The notes below the pieces were generated by a model that made no database searches, was not told the origin of the DNA, and worked only from the letters and a program-made list of their open reading frames with translations. DNA of 64,000 nucleotides, taken from NCBI GenBank assembly GCA_963169745.1, contig CAUJCU010000013.1:1-64000 (forward strand), written 5' to 3'. This document shows positions 53,865 to 63,460 of this stretch, in pieces. How positions within the stretch are numbered: position 1 is the first letter of the stretch; the number at the start of each line of letters is the position of its first letter. Made by a program: the position numbers and the translations under genes. The DNA comes from Bacteroidota bacterium (GTDB taxonomy: Bacteria; Bacteroidota; Bacteroidia; UBA4408).

Positions 53865-56744
53865 ATGGAGTATAATTTTAGAGAGACCGAAAAAAAGTGG
53901 CAGCAATACTGGGTTGAAAATAAAACGTATAAAACAGAGCGCGATCCCTTAAAACCAAAGTTTTATGTTTTAGATATGTTTCCTTATCCCAGTGGGGCTG
54001 GTTTACATGTTGGGCATCCATTAGGCTATATAGCCTCAGATATTTACAGCCGGTATAAACGACTCAAGGGATTTAATGTTCTGCATCCCATGGGTTTTGA
54101 TTCGTTTGGGTTGCCTGCCGAGCAATATGCTATACAAACAGGTCAACACCCTAAAATAACCACACAAAAAAACATTGAACGTTACCGTGAACAATTAGAC
54201 AAAATAGGTTTTTCATTTGATTGGGACAGAGAAGTACGTACATCAGATGCTTCCTATTATAAATGGACACAATGGATTTTCATTAAGCTATTTCAATCAT
54301 GGTATAATACCCAAAGTGATAAAGCAGAGGCCATAGTTGACTTAATTAAGATTTTTGAAAAAAATGGAAATTTAGACGTTTATGCTTGTTGTGATGATGA
54401 TACACCGCGATTTACAGCAAGTGAATGGTTGTCTTTTTCTCCAAAAAAGCGAGCAAATATTTTAATGGCCTATCGTTTGGCCTATTTGGGTGAAGCATAC
54501 GTAAATTGGTGTCCTGTTTTAGGTACTGTATTGGCTAATGACGAAGTAAAAGATGGTGTAAGTGAGCGCGGTGGGCATCCGGTTGAACGTAAACTTATGA
54601 AGCAATGGAGTATGCGTATTACAGCTTATGCTGATAGGTTGCTAAAGGGTTTAGAGCAAATTGATTGGAGTGAAAGTATAAAAGAAGCTCAACGTAACTG
54701 GATAGGAAAATCAGAAGGAACAAGCTTATACTTTAAAATAGTAGGAAGCGAAAAACAGGTTGAAGTATTTACCACACGGCCTGATACTGTTTTTGGGGTT
54801 ACATTTGTAACGCTCGCTCCTGAACATGAGTGGGTGCCATTAATTACTACCAGCGAACAAAAACAAAAAGTTGAAGACTATATTACAGTAACAGCCAAGC
54901 GTAGCGAACGAGAACGTATGGCTGATGTAAAAAAAATAAGTGGCGTTTTTACTGGGGCTTACGTGCAACACCCTTTTACACAACAAAAAATTCCGGTATG
55001 GGTAGGAGATTATGTGTTAGCGGGCTATGGAACAGGAGCAGTAATGGGGGTTCCGGCACACGATTCAAGAGATTACGCTTTTGCTGATTATTTTGGTTTA
55101 GAAAAAAAACAGGTCATACAACCTGAAGAAGTATGGGATTTTAACAAGCTGTCTTATGACGAAAAACAAGGCATACTCATTCATTCTGATTTTTTGAATG
55201 GATTTTCTGTTCGTGATGCCATAAAAAAAGCTATATCAGAAATAGAACAACGAGGCTTAGGAAAAAGAAAAATAAATTATCGCTTGCGTGATGCCGTTTT
55301 TGGCAGGCAGCGGTATTGGGGAGAGCCTATTCCGGTTTACTATAAAGATGATATACCATGTACTTTAGATTTTAATGAACTTCCGCTAATTTTACCTGAA
55401 ATTGATTCATACTTGCCTACTAAGAATGGCGAACCGCCTTTGGCTCGTGCCGCAGAAACCTGGAAAAAAGATGGCCTATACGATTTCGAGCATACCACCA
55501 TGCCGGGATGGGCAGGAAGCAGCTGGTATTATTTACGCTATATGGATGCTCAAAATCAAAATGAGTTTGTTTCTAAAGCAAATGCAGATTATTGGCAAAA
55601 TGTAGATTTATATATTGGCGGTGCTGAACATGCTACAGGTCACTTGTTGTATGTCCGTTTTTGGACCAAATTTTTATTTGACAGTGGGTATATTACATTT
55701 CATGAACCTGCAAAAAAACTTATCAATCAAGGAATGATACAAGGTGTTAGCAGTTTTGTTTATCGTTCGCCCAATACACGTTCATTTATTTCTTATAATT
55801 TAATAAAAGATCAGTTTGGTAAAATATCTATTGATGAGCTTGAAAGCGAAGCTTCTAAGCCCGGTGCTACTACAGCAGCTCTCAATGCCTGGAAAAATTC
55901 TTCTTACCATAAATTTGGTAAAGTAAGTGCTTTGCATGTAGATATTCGTTTTGTAACCAACAACCAATTGGATATTGAAGGTTTTAAAAGCTGGCGTGCA
56001 GAGTATGCTGATGCTGATTTTGTTTTAGAAGAAGGAAAATATATTTGTGGCAGTGAAGTTGAAAAAATGTCAAAATCAAAATGGAATGTTGTAAGTCCAG
56101 ATGATATTATTGAACAATATGGTGCTGACGCTTTAAGATTATATGAAATGTTTTTGGGGCCCATAGAACTGAGTAAACCATGGAATACTAATGGCATTAC
56201 CGGAGTATCAAATTTTATGCGAAAGTTGTGGCGCTTGTACCATCAAAATAACGAGCTTAACCTAAGTGATGACGAACCTACAAAACTGGAGTGGAAAGTA
56301 CTTCACCGAACTATCAAAAAAATTAGCTATGATATTGAACATTTTTCGTTTAATACCTCGGTTAGTAATTTTATGATTTGTGTAAATGAATTATCAGATT
56401 TAAAATGCAACAAAAGAAAGATATTAAATCCTTTAGCGATTATTATATCACCTTACGCCCCTCATATTGCTGAAGAACTTTGGCATTTATTAGGACACCC
56501 TGAAAGTATTACAAAAGCTCAATTTCCGGAATACGATGAAAGTTTTTTAGTTGAATCATCATTTATTTACCCGGTTTCTTTTAATGGAAAAACAAAATTC
56601 AATTTTGAATTTGACTTATCATTAAGTAAGGAAGAGATAGAAAAACAAGTATTGCAACTAGAACAAACACAAAAAATACTAGCTGGTAAAACGCCCAAAA
56701 AAGTAATTATTGTACCTCATAAAATAGTAAATATTGTGATGTGA
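53865..56744 (+). CDS. leuS: Leucyl-tRNA synthetase
   Basis: 959 residues, longer than the E. coli enzyme (860) but usual for Bacteroidota, which carry insertions near 150-190 and before KMSKS. It charges tRNA-Leu. The class I signatures are HVGH at about 48-51 in [17 protein letters not shown] and KMSKS at about 734-738. The CP1 editing domain has [18 protein letters not shown] and the conserved [24 protein letters not shown] marks the return to the catalytic core. The C-terminal anticodon-binding domain ends with [18 protein letters not shown]. It is monocistronic between the ftsX gap and the 160-bp repeats. Confidence 0.97.
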
Positions 56745-57359
56745 GTCATGAGCCTGCCTTAAGCCTCATTAGCAAAGAACCGGAGCAGATTCAAAAATAT
56801 GCAAGAAAACACAGTTGTATATAAACTCAAATTACTAGGAAGTTTTTGTAAAAGGACACTACATTACCTCTAAAAACGGCAGTTCGTCTAATAATTTAAT
56901 TGTTTTTCCCAGTAAAAGCGAAGCTACGCTTCGTGTTTTTTAATAGATAGAGCTTTGCTCGGCTTTATTGTGCTCATTTGATTTTGAAAAATAACATCTT
57001 TTCTGTATCCACGCAAGTAAAACTTGCTCAATTAAAGGAAAGCGAAGCACAACTTCGCTTTTACGTGTGTGGTAAACGCGAAGCTACCCTTCGTGTTTTT
57101 TAATAGATAGAGCTTTGCTCGGCTTTATTGTGCTCATTTGATTTTGAAAAATAACTTCTGTTCTTTTTCCACGCAAGTAAAACTTGCTCAATTAAAGGAA
57201 AGCGAAGCACAGCTTCGCTTTTACGGAGTAATAAGGTGCGGTTGAACAGGCTTGTTTTGAAGATGATTTATATTTGTTCTCTCCATCTATGTTAACTTGT
57301 CAAAGGCTTTCTGATAACATTTTTTCTTAATCATTTAAAATATTTCACTTGAATTTATA
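56745..57359. other. 615-bp gene-free region holding repeat block A
   Basis: No plausible ORF. The centre (56911-57226) is two tandem copies of the 160-bp palindrome-rich element. Flanks are plain AT-rich sequence. Confidence 0.6.
56911..57226. repeat. Palindrome-rich 160-bp repeat, block A (two copies)
   Basis: Copies begin near 56911 and 57071, exactly 160 bp apart (aagctac at 56921 and 57081). Each copy contains four short inverted repeats in fixed order: CGAAGC..GCTTCG, GAGC-TTT-GCTC, GCAAG-TAAAA-CTTGC and GCGAAGC-ACA-GCTTCGC (the last one imperfect in the first copy), joined by near-constant spacers such as tgtgctcatttgatttt. Related copies form block B at 61722-62021. Confidence 0.9.
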
Positions 57360-59141
57360 ATGTTTTGTAGCTTTGCAACATATAAATTTTTACATAAGAA
57401 AAATTTAAACAAAAACGATTTTATCCCGCTTAATAAAACAATTGGAACAGCCTTAACGCTTATTTTCACATCTAATTTTTTAAATGCACAAATTAGAACT
57501 GGGGGAATATTAATCCCGCCTTCAACTGGTACTCAAAATATTTATATTGGAGATAATGCTATTCTTTCTGTTAATAATGCAAAATTGGAAGTAAAGGCAC
57601 AAGATCTTTTTACTTCACAAAATTGGTCAGCTGGTATTAGATTAATTGCAAAAAATCAAGGTGGAACGCCTCAAAATGGTGCTGCAATAATATGGGATAA
57701 AGGAACTGGTGGTGTTGGTGTTCAAGCTCCCTATCATTTTTTTATGGCTGGTCTAGCTGACAGTCCATTTGGTGACTTTTTTACAGGCTGGGATACAGCA
57801 TATGGAACCACGTATAATCCAATTTACACAAGCACAGTTTATGCTCAAGTTAGAAATGTTGTTAATCCAGTAGGGACTACTAAGTTTTATAAGAATCTCT
57901 TAGTTTATGATGGAGCTTCTCCAGAGGTAAATTCTAGAAATAGAGTAGGAATTGGTTTATCTGCTCCGAGTGAACAATTACATACTAATCAAGGTGAAAG
58001 ATTTGAAGGGCTAACCTCTTCAACTACTGCTCCTCGTTTGGTTGTTCAAGATGCAACAGGTAAATTGTTTTACAGAAATTTTTTGGGTATTCTCTCAAAT
58101 TCTTGTTCTTCTGGCAATTATCTACCAAAGGTTGATATTGCAAATACTAATAATTTTATTTGCAGTCAAGTTTATGATAATGGGAGTAGTGTAGGTATTG
58201 GAACAAGTTCTCCAGATGCTAAGTTTCACATGAATGGTGGCTCAATATGGTTAACAAATGGTGGAGCTCCATTTATTGCAGCTGGCGCAGGTTTAAGAAT
58301 GTACAATGATAATGCAACTAAAAAAAGTAATATTTTTTCGTTTAATTATTCTAATTCTACTGCTACTGACCTTTTGCTACAAGCACCAGGTGGAAATGTT
58401 GGAGTAAATATGACGCCAGGAACTTTTACTGGTAGTGGTGTTTCTATTCTTGGCGCTCCTGCAAACCCTACAAAGGTTAAATTAGATGTAAATGGGATGA
58501 TTAGAAGTACTTATTTAGTTGTAATTTCAGATGAAAAGGTGAAGACAAACATCAAAAATTTGAATTCATCACTTGATAAAGTATTAAACCTTAGAGGTGT
58601 TTCTTACAACTGGAAAAAAGATGTTGCCAATAGAAATTTTGACGATTTCAAACAAATCGGATTCATTGCTCAAGAGGTTGAAAAAGTTTTACCAGAAGTA
58701 GTCGGAAAAGATGAAAACGGCAACTATGCAATGAATTATCAAGCTATAATTCCAGTTTTAGCAGAAGCAATAAAAGAGCAAAATGCTGTAATTTCTGAAC
58801 TTAAAGCTAAAATTGAAATTTTATTAATTGCATCGACAAATAATACAACTTCTGTTAAAGATGTTGAAAATAGCCTTGGGTTAGCTGAAATGATGCAAAA
58901 CAAACCTAACCCTTTTAATAAGGAAACTACTATTACTTGTATAATACCTGAAGCATCCTCAAATTCAGTATTGTTTATTTATGATATACAAGGCAAGCAA
59001 TTACGAAAAACAGAAATAAAACAAAAAGGGAAAACCGACATTACAATTTAAGCAAATGAATTAAAACCGGGCATGTACTTATATAGTTTAATTGTTGATG
59101 GAAAAGAAGTTTCAACAAAGAGAATGATTATAACTGACTAA
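57360..59141 (+). pseudogene. S74 tail-fibre-type T9SS protein with premature stop
   Basis: 563 residues up to TAA at 59049-59051. The frame then continues 29 more sense codons (ANELKPGMYLYSLIVDGKE ... MIITD) to TAA at 59139-59141, which is exactly the end of a T9SS type A sorting domain. The stop is therefore a nonsense mutation in the last strand region. Signal segment at about 25-45 (IGTALTLIFTSNFLNAQ). Tail-fibre-like Gly/Asn repeats (IGTSSPDAKFHMNGG) follow. The S74 chaperone domain at about 385-480 has SDEKVKTNIKN, RGVSYNWKK and GFIAQEVEKVLPEVVG, then a coiled coil and NKPNPFNKETTITC. The truncated protein would probably not be sorted. It is a paralogue of the broken gene at 6653-9178. 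Confidence 0.8.
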
Positions 59142-59228
59142 TTAAAAAGGAACTCTATATTAATATTATATAAGTTTCATTATTGTGATATCGTTAATCC
59201 ATAAATAGTATTTTTCATAAAGTAATCA

Positions 59229-60498
59229 ATGCAAATTTACATCCATAGCTCACTTTCATATATCAATAATGAGTTGGTGTATATCCTAACCCAACTTTTT
59301 AAAAACTACAATACTGAATATGTATTTTTACAACAAAAATCAGAAAACAGCATTTGTGTTTCTACTATTGGTTCAGATATTTTATTCAAAAAATCTAACT
59401 TTGAAAATCTTACAAACTTATACGTTTAGTATCGATTTCACAAACAATGGTTATTTAAAATTAGAAAATGGAACACCTGATTACTTGGCAACTGCTTTTT
59501 ATCTTTTAACCTGCGCTCAAGAATTAAATGATTCTAAAAAAGACAAATTCGGAAGATTTCCTTTTGAAGAAAGTTACCAAAAATACTTTGGTATTGCTTC
59601 TGAAAACCGAGTACAAAAATGTTTTGATGAACTAGTTAAATTAACACCCAAATTAAGTACTCTTAAAAAACCAGCATACAAGAGTACAATTTTTCTTTCA
59701 CACGATATTGATTTAATCAATGGTGCATTGATTCAAGACGGTTTTTATTGTTTAAAAAGAATGAATATCCCTGCCATTTTCCAAATTATATTTAGCAATT
59801 TAATTGTAAAACCACAATGGTTGAATATGGATAAAATAATGAAAATTGAAAGTGAATATGACTTTAAATCAACTTTTTATTGGTTAGTAAACAAAGGGCT
59901 TTCAAAAGAAGGAATTAAAAACTCCGATTACAATTATAATAGTGCTAAAGTGCAAGAACAAGTTCAATTAGTAAAAAATAATGGTTGCGAGAATGGTTTG
60001 CATAAAAGTATTTCTGACGAAACTTTTGAAACAGAAATATTAAAACTTAATTTTAATCCAATAGGAAACCGCTACCACTTTTTAAAATTTAGACCACACA
60101 CTGATTTTGAAAAAATAAACAATATAGGGTTAAAGTTCGATACTTCATTAGGCTTTGCTGAACAAATTGGATTCAGAAATAGTTACGGCTAGCCCTTCAA
60201 ACCATTTAATTTTCAAACAAAAAAGGAATTTAATTTTATAGAATGTCCATTACATATTATGGATACAACATTGCACCATTACCAAAGAAAATCTGCTGAT
60301 GAAGCATTTAATTATATAACTACATTTACCGAACAAAATGCTGAAAATGCAGTATTATCGGTACTTTGGCATAATAACTATTTTACACCTTATAAGTACG
60401 GAAGTTATTTTAAACTCTATAAGCAATTACTTGCTTATTTTTATGAGAATAAGTTTTTAGGTATTACTCAACAAGAAATAATAGAAAAATACAGTTAA
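59229..60498 (+). pseudogene. Damaged polysaccharide-deacetylase-like gene
   Basis: Three reading pieces form one protein. 59229 starts MQIYIHSSLSYINNELVYIL; a frameshift of one extra base between about 59385 and 59430 moves to the frame of FSIDFTNNGYLKL, which runs to TAG at 60190-60192. The same frame goes on PFKPFNFQTKKEFNF ... IEKYS to 60498. Motifs of the family are FLSHDIDLINGALIQDG, FKSTFYWLV, GCENGLHKS, YHFLKFR and LWHNNYF. In Bacteroidota such proteins lie in surface-polysaccharide loci. A frameshift plus a nonsense codon make it a probable pseudogene. The next gene starts 3 bp after it. Confidence 0.75.
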
Positions 60499-60501
60499 AC
60501 A

Positions 60502-61584
60502 ATGACAATAGAAGTAAGACTATTGATGAACGAAGAACTGACACATGCTAACGATTTCTTCAATAAAATTTACAAGTTGCATAGAGCCTATGAGCATTTT
60601 AAATGGGAGTTTCTTGATTGCCCAGCAGGTTCGGCAATCTATGTTGCAGCCATTGATACTTCAATAAAAACAAAAATGAAAATTGTAGGAATCCAATGCG
60701 CAATTCCACTATTGATGATAACTTCGGAAGGACAACAAATACTTACAGCAAAGTCAGAAGACACACTTGTTGATCCTGAATACAGAGGGCAAGACATTTT
60801 TAATAAAATGTATAATCTATTGTTTGAAGAATGTAAAAAAGCAGGCATTAAATACATTTGGGGCTTTACTCCTGCATACAAACCATTTATCAAGTTGGGC
60901 TTTAAACTCAACTTTAAAAGCGCTCAATTACTTTATGTCAATAAACCCATTGCAGCCTATCACTATTTATCCTCATTAAATCCCAAGAATAAATTAATTG
61001 ATAAGGTTAAAATTTTAGGATTAAGTTTTTTATCGAAACTTAATTCGTTTAAGTCAATGCCATTCAGTAAACTTTTTGATGAGATAAACTATAAATTAGA
61101 AAACTTTGAATTAGAAATTGTATCTAAAACATTATTTAAGGAAAATACAAATCAACTATTTTTATATGAAGATAGGGAATATTTTAATTGGAGAATCTTT
61201 AAAAATATACATAATAACAATTACAAAAACCTTGTTTTTAGAACTCCCGATAATAAATGTGTAGCAGACGTTATCATAAACACAAGAGGGACAGTTGGCT
61301 ATATTGAACAAATAATATTTACAGAAATTCTCAGTGAAAAATCAAAAAAAGCAATAATAAAACAATGTTTAAATGTTTTAACAAACTTAGGTGTACCAAT
61401 TATTCGGTTTTTAGGTTTTGAAGCAAATTCCATAAATCAATCGGAAGTGAAATTATTAATAGATATTGGCTTTTATAAAGTAACGCGTGGCAATTGGTTT
61501 GTTTGGAAATCATTAGATAACAACTTTAATCACGAACCTGAAAATATAGTTCTTAATAGATTGTTTACACAAGGTATTATGTAA
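60502..61584 (+). CDS. GNAT-family acetyltransferase
   Basis: 360 residues. The N-terminal half (about 1-155) is a GNAT fold: KSEDTLVDPEYRGQDIFNKMYNLLFEECKKAG carries the Q/R-x-x-G-x-x/A-like acetyl-CoA loop (RGQDIF), followed by YIWGFTPAYKPFIKLGFK. The second half (about 220-350) may be another GNAT-like lobe (YFNWRIFKNIHNN, IEQIIFTEILSEKS, VPIIRFLGFEANS). Such two-lobed proteins occur beside deacetylase-like genes in Bacteroidota polysaccharide clusters. It starts 3 bp after the damaged deacetylase-like gene, so they were probably one operon; it is the only gene of the island with an undamaged frame. Confidence 0.75.
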   Translation: MTIEVRLLMNEELTHANDFFNKIYKLHRAYEHFKWEFLDCPAGSAIYVAAIDTSIKTKMKIVGIQCAIPLLMITSEGQQILTAKSEDTLVDPEYRGQDIFNKMYNLLFEECKKAGIKYIWGFTPAYKPFIKLGFKLNFKSAQLLYVNKPIAAYHYLSSLNPKNKLIDKVKILGLSFLSKLNSFKSMPFSKLFDEINYKLENFELEIVSKTLFKENTNQLFLYEDREYFNWRIFKNIHNNNYKNLVFRTPDNKCVADVIINTRGTVGYIEQIIFTEILSEKSKKAIIKQCLNVLTNLGVPIIRFLGFEANSINQSEVKLLIDIGFYKVTRGNWFVWKSLDNNFNHEPENIVLNRLFTQGIM

Positions 61585-62068
61585 TTAAATTTGTCAATCA
61601 ATAATATTTTCAGTTTTTTCACTTTAAATAAATTATTAATCCAAATTCAATAAAATTATTGCATCCACAATAGAAGCAGGACGCTCAAAAAATGCATCAA
61701 ATTGCTTATATATGTCCCCAATGTAAACGTAAAGCTGCGCTTCGTGTTTTTTTAATAGATAGAGCTTAGCTCGGCTTTTTTGTGCTCATTTGATTTTAAA
61801 AAATTTCATCTGTTCTATTTCCGCGCAAGTAAAGCTTGCTCAATTAAAGGAAAGCGAAGCAAAGCTTCGCTTTTACGTGTGTGGTAAACGCGAAGCTACG
61901 CTTCGTGTATTTTAATAGGTAGAGCTTTGCTCGGCTTTATTGTGCTCATTTGATTTTAAAAAATAGCATCTGTTCTATTTCCACGCAAGTAAAACTTGCT
62001 CAATTAGCTTCGCTTTTACTGGGAGTTATTATAAAGTCTGTAGTTGCCCACAAGCAAAGGCTTGGCTT
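61585..62068. other. Gene-free region holding repeat block B
   Basis: No ORF of note between the GNAT gene and the arginine decarboxylase stop. 61722-62021 is occupied by two 160-bp repeat copies. Confidence 0.6.
61722..62021. repeat. Palindrome-rich 160-bp repeat, block B (two copies)
   Basis: Same element, orientation and 160-bp period as block A (agagctt at 61761 and 61921). The first copy starts aaagctgcgcttcgtg, slightly diverged. The second lacks about 17 bp near 62005, where the last hairpin keeps only its right arm. Many changes keep pairing, for example gagcttagctc against gagctttgctc. Confidence 0.9.
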
Positions 62069-63460
62069 TTAATAGCCTAATATTTTAAGCATTGATTTAT
62101 AGCTTTGTTCTTTGGCAAATAATTTGGTATAATACTCTCCATCATCATCTACATTAATTATAACATGTTTTGGGGCCGGTATTAGGCAATGCTGAATGCC
62201 ACCATATCCACCAAGTGATTCTTGATAAGCACCGGTATGAAAGAAGCCAATATACATAGGTTTTTTCTTATCCAGCTTAGGTAAAAATATTTGATTAATA
62301 TGTGCTTCAGAGTTATAATAATCATCACTATCACATGTTAAACCACCTAAATTTACTTTTTCATATTCCTTATCCCAATTGTTAATAGCCAGCATAATAA
62401 ATCGCTGTCTAATTCCCCAAGTGTCGGGTAAAGTTGTAATAAACGAAGAGTCAATCATATTCCAAAGCTCTTTATCGTTCTGGTATTTTTGATCAACAAT
62501 GCTGTATAATGCAGCGCCACTTTCGCCTACCGTAAAACTACCAAATTCGCTAAAAATATTAGGCTCCTCAACCCCATTTTCATTACAAATTGTTTTTATA
62601 TGTTGAACAATTTGTTCAGCCATATACTCATAATCATAATTAAATGCCAATGATGTTCTTATTGGGAAACCACCTCCAATATCAATACTGTCTAATTCAG
62701 GGCAAACCTTTTTTAAATCACAGTAAACGTGAATACATTTAGTTAGCTCGTTCCAATAATAAGCCGTGTCTTTTATTCCTGTATTGATAAAAAAGTGCAA
62801 CATTTTTAAAGAAAATTTACTGCTCCCCTTTATCTTCGTATGATAAAACTCAACAATATCATTTGATCTAATACCTAATCGCGAGGTGTAAAACTCAAAA
62901 TCAGGTTCCTCTTCAGCGGCTATCCGAAGGCCAATTTTACACGGTTTTTTTATAAATTTTTCGTAATACCTTATTTCATCTTTGGTATCTAAAATAGGGG
63001 TAACATTCTCAAAACCATCATTAATTAAATCGGCAATGGCCTGTGCATAGGAAGGACGTTTATAACCATTGCATATCACATAAATTTGTTTTGTAATGAG
63101 CTTATTCTCATATAGCTTTTTTATTATAGGAATATCAAAGCCCGAACTTGTTTCGATATTAATATCATTTTTAAGAGCTTCTTCCAAAACAAAAGAAAAA
63201 TGTGAGCTTTTAGTGCAGTAACAATACGTATAGCTTCCTTTATAGTCGGCTTTAGCAATGGCAACATTAAACAAGCGTTTGGCTTTTTGGATTTGCGAGC
63301 TTATTTTGGGAAGATACGTAATTTTTAGAGGTGTTCCATATTGTTTAATAATATCCATTAATGGAATGTCATAAAAGTACAACTCGCCCTCATTAACTTT
63401 AAAGCCTTCTTGGGGAAAATCGAAGGTTTGATTAATTAAATCAATATACCTGTGGCTCAT
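62069..63460 (-). CDS. speA: Arginine decarboxylase (PLP fold type III, Bacteroidota form)
   Basis: 463 residues, the short form found in Bacteroidota. It decarboxylates arginine to agmatine. The PLP Lys is about Lys84 in YCYCTKSSHF. The phosphate-binding loop SIDIGGGFP lies near 247, and EFGSFTVGESGA follows. The C-terminal beta domain has LGGLTCDSDDYYNSE, with the catalytic Cys-Asp motif, and GFFHTGAYQESLGGYGG with substrate residues. Its 5' end faces the divergent arginase/agmatinase-family gene 146 bp away, which supports a polyamine role. Diaminopimelate decarboxylase is less likely given this partner and the TCDSDD motif. Confidence 0.88.
   Translation of the reverse strand: MSHRYIDLINQTFDFPQEGFKVNEGELYFYDIPLMDIIKQYGTPLKITYLPKISSQIQKAKRLFNVAIAKADYKGSYTYCYCTKSSHFSFVLEEALKNDINIETSSGFDIPIIKKLYENKLITKQIYVICNGYKRPSYAQAIADLINDGFENVTPILDTKDEIRYYEKFIKKPCKIGLRIAAEEEPDFEFYTSRLGIRSNDIVEFYHTKIKGSSKFSLKMLHFFINTGIKDTAYYWNELTKCIHVYCDLKKVCPELDSIDIGGGFPIRTSLAFNYDYEYMAEQIVQHIKTICNENGVEEPNIFSEFGSFTVGESGAALYSIVDQKYQNDKELWNMIDSSFITTLPDTWGIRQRFIMLAINNWDKEYEKVNLGGLTCDSDDYYNSEAHINQIFLPKLDKKKPMYIGFFHTGAYQESLGGYGGIQHCLIPAPKHVIINVDDDGEYYTKLFAKEQSYKSMLKILGY

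Follow-up and report, generated by a model that had tools for sequence, protein, structure and literature searches.

Repeat units in a Bacteroidota genome as probable gene-deleted remnants of a RAYT element

Introduction

The RAYTs of E. coli, Stenotrophomonas and Marinomonas cut single-stranded REP hairpins; a 5' tetranucleotide helps select the cut, and the E. coli enzyme additionally requires a bulge in the stem (PMC8266576). In gammaproteobacterial REP/RAYT systems and their BIMEs, inverted palindromes flank the RAYT gene and the repeats follow RAYT presence, and in marine gammaproteobacteria the REPs are concentrated near the RAYT gene (Nunvar et al. 2010, PMC2817692). The repeated unit of P. 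fluorescens SBW25 is the REPIN, an inverted REP doublet that is intergenic, occurs in a genome with a RAYT and also forms tandem clusters with their flanks (Bertels and Rainey 2011, PMC3116915). Among the Bacteroidetes, Quentin et al. 2018 (PMC6006769) describe subclass 2.6 of TnpAY1, which corresponds to RAYT group 5 of Bertels et al. 2017 and has NH[LIV]H and YIH[QN]NP motifs. That study characterizes the sequences around these RAYT genes as 'atypical secondary structures' that have no GT[AG]G, were recognised by manual inspection only and have copies elsewhere in the genome; its main text gives no consensus for the hairpins.

The origin of REPs and the substrates of non-proteobacterial RAYTs are the question addressed here. 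The repeats that we analysed resemble the gammaproteobacterial systems in the inverted palindromes around the RAYT gene, in following RAYT presence and in their concentration near it, but they lack both the canonical GT(A/G)G head and the GC-rich palindrome (PMC2817692). Like SBW25 REPINs, they are intergenic inverted doublets in a genome with a RAYT, and tandem clusters occur here too; unlike them, they have another foot and other hairpins, the unit is longer, with two extra inner hairpins, and descent from the RAYT gene's own element appears visible in the sequence (PMC3116915). The RAYT motifs, the atypical flanking hairpins with copies elsewhere and the lack of a GT[AG]G foot are shared with subclass 2.6. 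The present system differs from that subclass as described (PMC6006769) in that a GYW foot, a G.T mismatch and a T-first loop recur and that the repeat unit appears to be a gene-deleted RAYT element; at the W-motif position, which varies within the subclass, it has FWR in place of WQ.

Results and Discussion

The window, by which we mean the whole 64,000-nt stretch analysed, lies on contig C13 of the source genome (G000). It contains four repeat units in a single orientation, arranged as two head-to-tail pairs (A1 and A2 on the left, B1 and B2 on the right) that start at 56912, 57072, 61723 and 61884. An initial reading of the window from its letters alone, the sequence-only reading, had described two blocks of two direct copies each, and sequence comparison bore this out; the exact 160-bp period that it reported was found in the left pair, but the right pair has a period of 161, with one additional T. 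The units of both pairs are separated by the spacer GTGTGTG, and the two blocks therefore look like copies of one dimer. Pairwise unit identity was 90-95%, and because A1-A2 (95.5%) and A2-B2 (94.9%) are equally close, the order of duplication events is not readable.

Unit A1 (56912-57064, + strand) carries an outer hairpin, H1 (56912-56933), followed by H2 (56950-56960), H3 (57013-57027) and H4 (57043-57064), the last being the outer hairpin inverted, with a single stem mismatch. Unit A2 (57072-57224, +) has H1 at 57072-57093 with one mismatch, H3 at 57173-57187 and H4 at 57203-57224; unit B1 (61723-61876, +) has H1 at 61723-61744 with two changes, H3 at 61825-61839 and H4 at 61855-61876. Four hairpins in a fixed order had been claimed for every copy. 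The order holds, but in unit B2 (61884-62019, +), which retains H1 (61884-61905) and H3 (61985-61999), a 17-nt deletion has removed the 5' arm of H4 and left no complete fourth hairpin. H1 and H4 share one sequence, GTAAAMG-CGAAGC-NNN-GCTTCG, and stand inverted to each other, a relation that the sequence-only reading had missed and that makes the unit REPIN-like. A 22-mer from the third hairpin had 4 matches versus 0 expected by chance. H2 is a weak hairpin of 4 bp, which counts against derivation from a RAYT element. On architecture, judged from general knowledge, integron attC sites were dropped (tandem units without cassette genes between them), as was CRISPR (no unique spacers).

Searching the contigs of G000 with the unit, as the sequence-only reading had suggested, revealed further copies. 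The outer-hairpin pattern, with ≤2 mismatches allowed, was found at 59 clustered sites (29 on C2, 11 on C9, 7 on C13, 6 on C17, 5 on C19 and 1 on C10), and the reversed pattern, used as a control, at 0. The largest cluster comprises the 29 C2 sites, at 474.1-486.9 kb, none of them more than 12 kb from the single intact RAYT gene. The C2 and C9 clusters sit between long ORFs, the RAYT gene itself excepted; among nine additional sites checked on C10, C17 and C19, eight overlapped no ORF ≥90 aa and one overlapped a mechanical 92-aa ORF. No movement or excision was seen, and at two C17 clusters no empty sites were found, the flanking genes being too diverged or on separate contigs. Many in-genome copies carry pair-breaking changes, and the repeat-RAYT system may for this reason now be idle in G000; those in the window are probably old copies in decay.

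The proposal of a non-autonomous repeat family was upheld by these many, mostly intergenic copies and by the apparent derivation of the unit from a transposase element. As in REPINs, the unit is an inverted palindrome doublet with a spacer; as in MITEs, which are 100-400 bp long, it has terminal inverted repeats and matches an autonomous element with an internal deletion. A canonical REP would have GT[AG]G at the hairpin foot, where GTAA is found here. That no named family has this design was correct for the sequence itself, but not at class level, where the units appear to be REP/REPIN-type elements of a RAYT.

The RAYT, the only intact Y1 transposase gene (C2:485603-486151), lies inside the largest cluster and is flanked by inverted palindromes (loci L054 and L055). 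Its product passed the NCBIfam model NF047646 REP_Tyr_transpos (90.9 bits; cut-off 80), as did four relatives, matched Pfam Y1_Tnp and failed the IS200 model (16.6 bits; cut-off 55). The HuH motif is NHVH and the Y motif YIHNNP. The W-motif position reads FWR, and FWK or FWQ in relatives, where the subclass motif is WQ; this region is not conserved within subclass 2.6 as described by Quentin et al. 2018 (PMC6006769). By its motifs and phylum, the C2 RAYT would fit TnpAY1 subclass 2.6. A PDB sequence search with the RAYT and a PHROGs search returned no match. A second Y1 transposase gene, at C17:86643-86980 (L038), is broken, with internal stops.

The repeat unit aligned with both ends of the RAYT locus, the gene being deleted. 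In congener G001, the RAYT locus, read as the reverse complement, consists of the outer hairpin, TGTTTTTTAAT, a GAGC hairpin, the RAYT gene, a GCAAGT hairpin, AATTAAAGGAAA and the inverted outer hairpin. The window units follow the same order, with a short spacer replacing the gene. One copy in the source genome, at C9:50055-50232, retains C-terminal codons of the RAYT (NPNFEIKLAAL, in reverse) fused to the RAYT leader. C-terminal-only RAYT remnants occurred in several genomes, and one of them adjoins repeats in congener G003 (C10). Genome G035, from another family and with an unrelated hairpin sequence, has two mini-elements composed of the RAYT left end, the last codons and the right end; because these are likewise RAYT ends with the gene deleted, the same derivation is suggested in two lineages. 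We consider it very probable from these alignments that the repeat units are miniature remnants of a RAYT element whose gene was deleted, and that they represent a branch, in Bacteroidota and so far poorly described, of a known repeat class. Mini-elements would then have descended visibly, by internal deletion, from a RAYT element in two lineages with unrelated hairpin sequences.

We propose that the left and right ends of an element encoding a RAYT, an HuH/Y1 tyrosine transposase, were joined after internal deletion of the gene, giving a REPIN-like mini-element, and that such mini-elements were later amplified in tandem and scattered over intergenic sites. The C2 RAYT may bind the outer hairpin in single-stranded DNA; by analogy, the foot, the mismatched stem and the T-first loop would be the features recognised. 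We infer that the RAYT mobilises the repeats: it would cut and rejoin the hairpin in trans, spreading mini-elements mostly near its own gene.

Alternatively, the Y1 gene could still be a conventional IS200-like insertion sequence, in which case the units would be its MITEs instead of REPs that belong to a domesticated transposase. Both readings involve the same chemistry and differ in whether gene and ends move as one element. Internal-deletion mini-elements are typical of IS-derived MITEs, and homologues are numerous in some relatives (15 matches in G001 and 12 in G080, where some scores are identical). However, G000 has one intact copy, most of the G001 homologues have diverged from one another (86, 63, 48 and 43% to the query) and are not fresh copies, and the IS200 model fell short of its cut-off whereas the RAYT model passed. 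We regard an ordinary insertion sequence as unlikely.

A single unit folded as DNA reached -29.6 kcal/mol (z -5.2), and 56700-62200 contained 8 terminator-like sites versus 2.1 expected, mostly within units. Such a strong fold and excess of terminator-like sites could point to selection for a structured RNA, a regulatory element or a terminator. Against this, an Rfam search of the window matched tRNAs alone, none of them in the repeats. The suggestion that substitutions keep pairing did not hold in the window: stem changes were a C.C mismatch in A2 H1, a wobble and an A.C mismatch in B1 H1, a T.G wobble in B1 H3 and a C.A mismatch in A1 H4. These changes mostly weaken pairing, and no double compensatory change was present in the stems of the four units. 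Covariation among in-genome copies was also rejected, the variants mostly disrupting pairs; a compensated innermost pair, CGAAGT/ACTTCG, was seen in G003 only. The copies further include fragments and tandem arrays of varying length, and their gene neighbour is not constant. Selection for an RNA or terminator is accordingly very improbable, and if the units act as terminators for leuS or the GNAT gene at all, this would be a side effect.

The blocks had also been interpreted as recombination borders of a decaying island, and as similar direct dimers with the same spacer they could recombine. The damage to two of the genes between them is real: the S74 gene (57360-59141) has an in-frame TAA at 59049-59051, and the deacetylase-like gene (59229-60498), with DUF7033 in its N-terminal part, carries both a frameshift and a TAG. 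Past the TAA, the S74 frame runs on to a C-terminal stretch resembling a sorting domain. In G003, however, an intact 428-aa relative of the deacetylase adjoins a GNAT relative on C41 (L101), with no repeat alongside. In the congeners, leuS is on another contig than the decarboxylase and both have other neighbours, and since flanking gene order is not conserved, no empty site is readable for the segment 57230-61720. Close-set clusters are, moreover, common in G000 and normal for these repeats. A role for the repeats as movers of an island with recombination borders is not supported, and we think there is very little chance that recombination between the blocks as borders has moved, or is going to excise, 57230-61720.

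It is hardly credible that the units are palindromes, or MITEs of some other transposase, without relation to the RAYT, and that the RAYT landed in their array by chance. Repeats do occur far from the RAYT, which is just one gene in a repeat-rich stretch, but the RAYT coding and leader sequence within the fused C9 copy, the matching arrangement in G001 and its counterpart of different sequence in the G035 mini-elements largely refute this reading, and the matched inverted hairpins that flank RAYTs across the phylum also speak against it.

Derivation of the units from a RAYT element was also examined through co-occurrence. Within the genus, where the comparison covers four genomes only, G000, G001 and G003 carry the repeat and a RAYT or its remnant, and G002 carries neither. 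Repeat copies lay near contig ends in the draft congeners (C67, C40 and C107 of G001; C20 of G003), so repeat counts there are probably too low. Among 96 sampled genomes outside the genus, the 160-bp unit was absent at E 1e-6, and RAYT homologues were present in 48.

RAYT loci were then screened automatically for a matched inverted pair of six-pair hairpins ≤150 nt from the RAYT. In the first set 16 of 29 loci were positive, versus a mean of 0.015 and a maximum of 1 in shuffles; controls gave 0/25 for distant flanks and 34/812 for cross-locus pairs. A hold-out set from a different collection, which may have a few genomes in common with the first, gave 8/17 positive loci (shuffles, 0.007; distant flanks, 0/15). 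With pairs chosen regardless of foot, 26 of the 46 RAYT loci had their own matched inverted pair. Of the resulting 52 hairpins, 35 had 5'G/3'T and 0 had T/G at the position just beneath the stem where pairing first fails, and 49 had a loop starting with T. Another tally used 36 hairpins chosen by eye because their foot was recognisable, which biases the selection; G.T was present in 36/36 and the foot was mostly GCTG, GCTA or GTAA. Positions -3/+3 were Watson-Crick in 31 of these (11.5 with tails permuted) and -4/+4 in 27 (11.3), a comparison whose p-values are optimistic because U and D hairpins from the same locus are related. Window H1 fits this blueprint, including the G.T mismatch, and window H4 is fully paired; non-fitting loci include L056, L057, L058, L074, L075, L079 and L110.

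These patterns leave us evenly divided on whether many of the Bacteroidota RAYTs share a non-GTAG substrate and REPIN-like repeats arise repeatedly via deletion of the RAYT gene from its own element. The features of that substrate, for which we see the case as equally balanced, would be a GYW foot, a short covarying base, a fixed G.T mismatch, a six-pair variable stem and a T-first loop. Comparison of the relatives gives a testable hairpin consensus to a branch of RAYTs with substrates so far called just 'atypical'; repeated RAYT-gene deletion, if true, would be a directly visible origin for REPINs.

Two further arrays were observed upstream of RAYTs. At L060 (G089), positions 1124-1351 hold two units with a 150-nt period that match that RAYT's own ends, each laid out as an outer hairpin, an AT-rich inner hairpin and an inverted outer hairpin. 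At L061, positions 1117-1377 contain another tandem hairpin array of different sequence, in which the hairpin CCGTAA-CCG-TTACGG occurs seven times, spaced exactly 41 nt apart.
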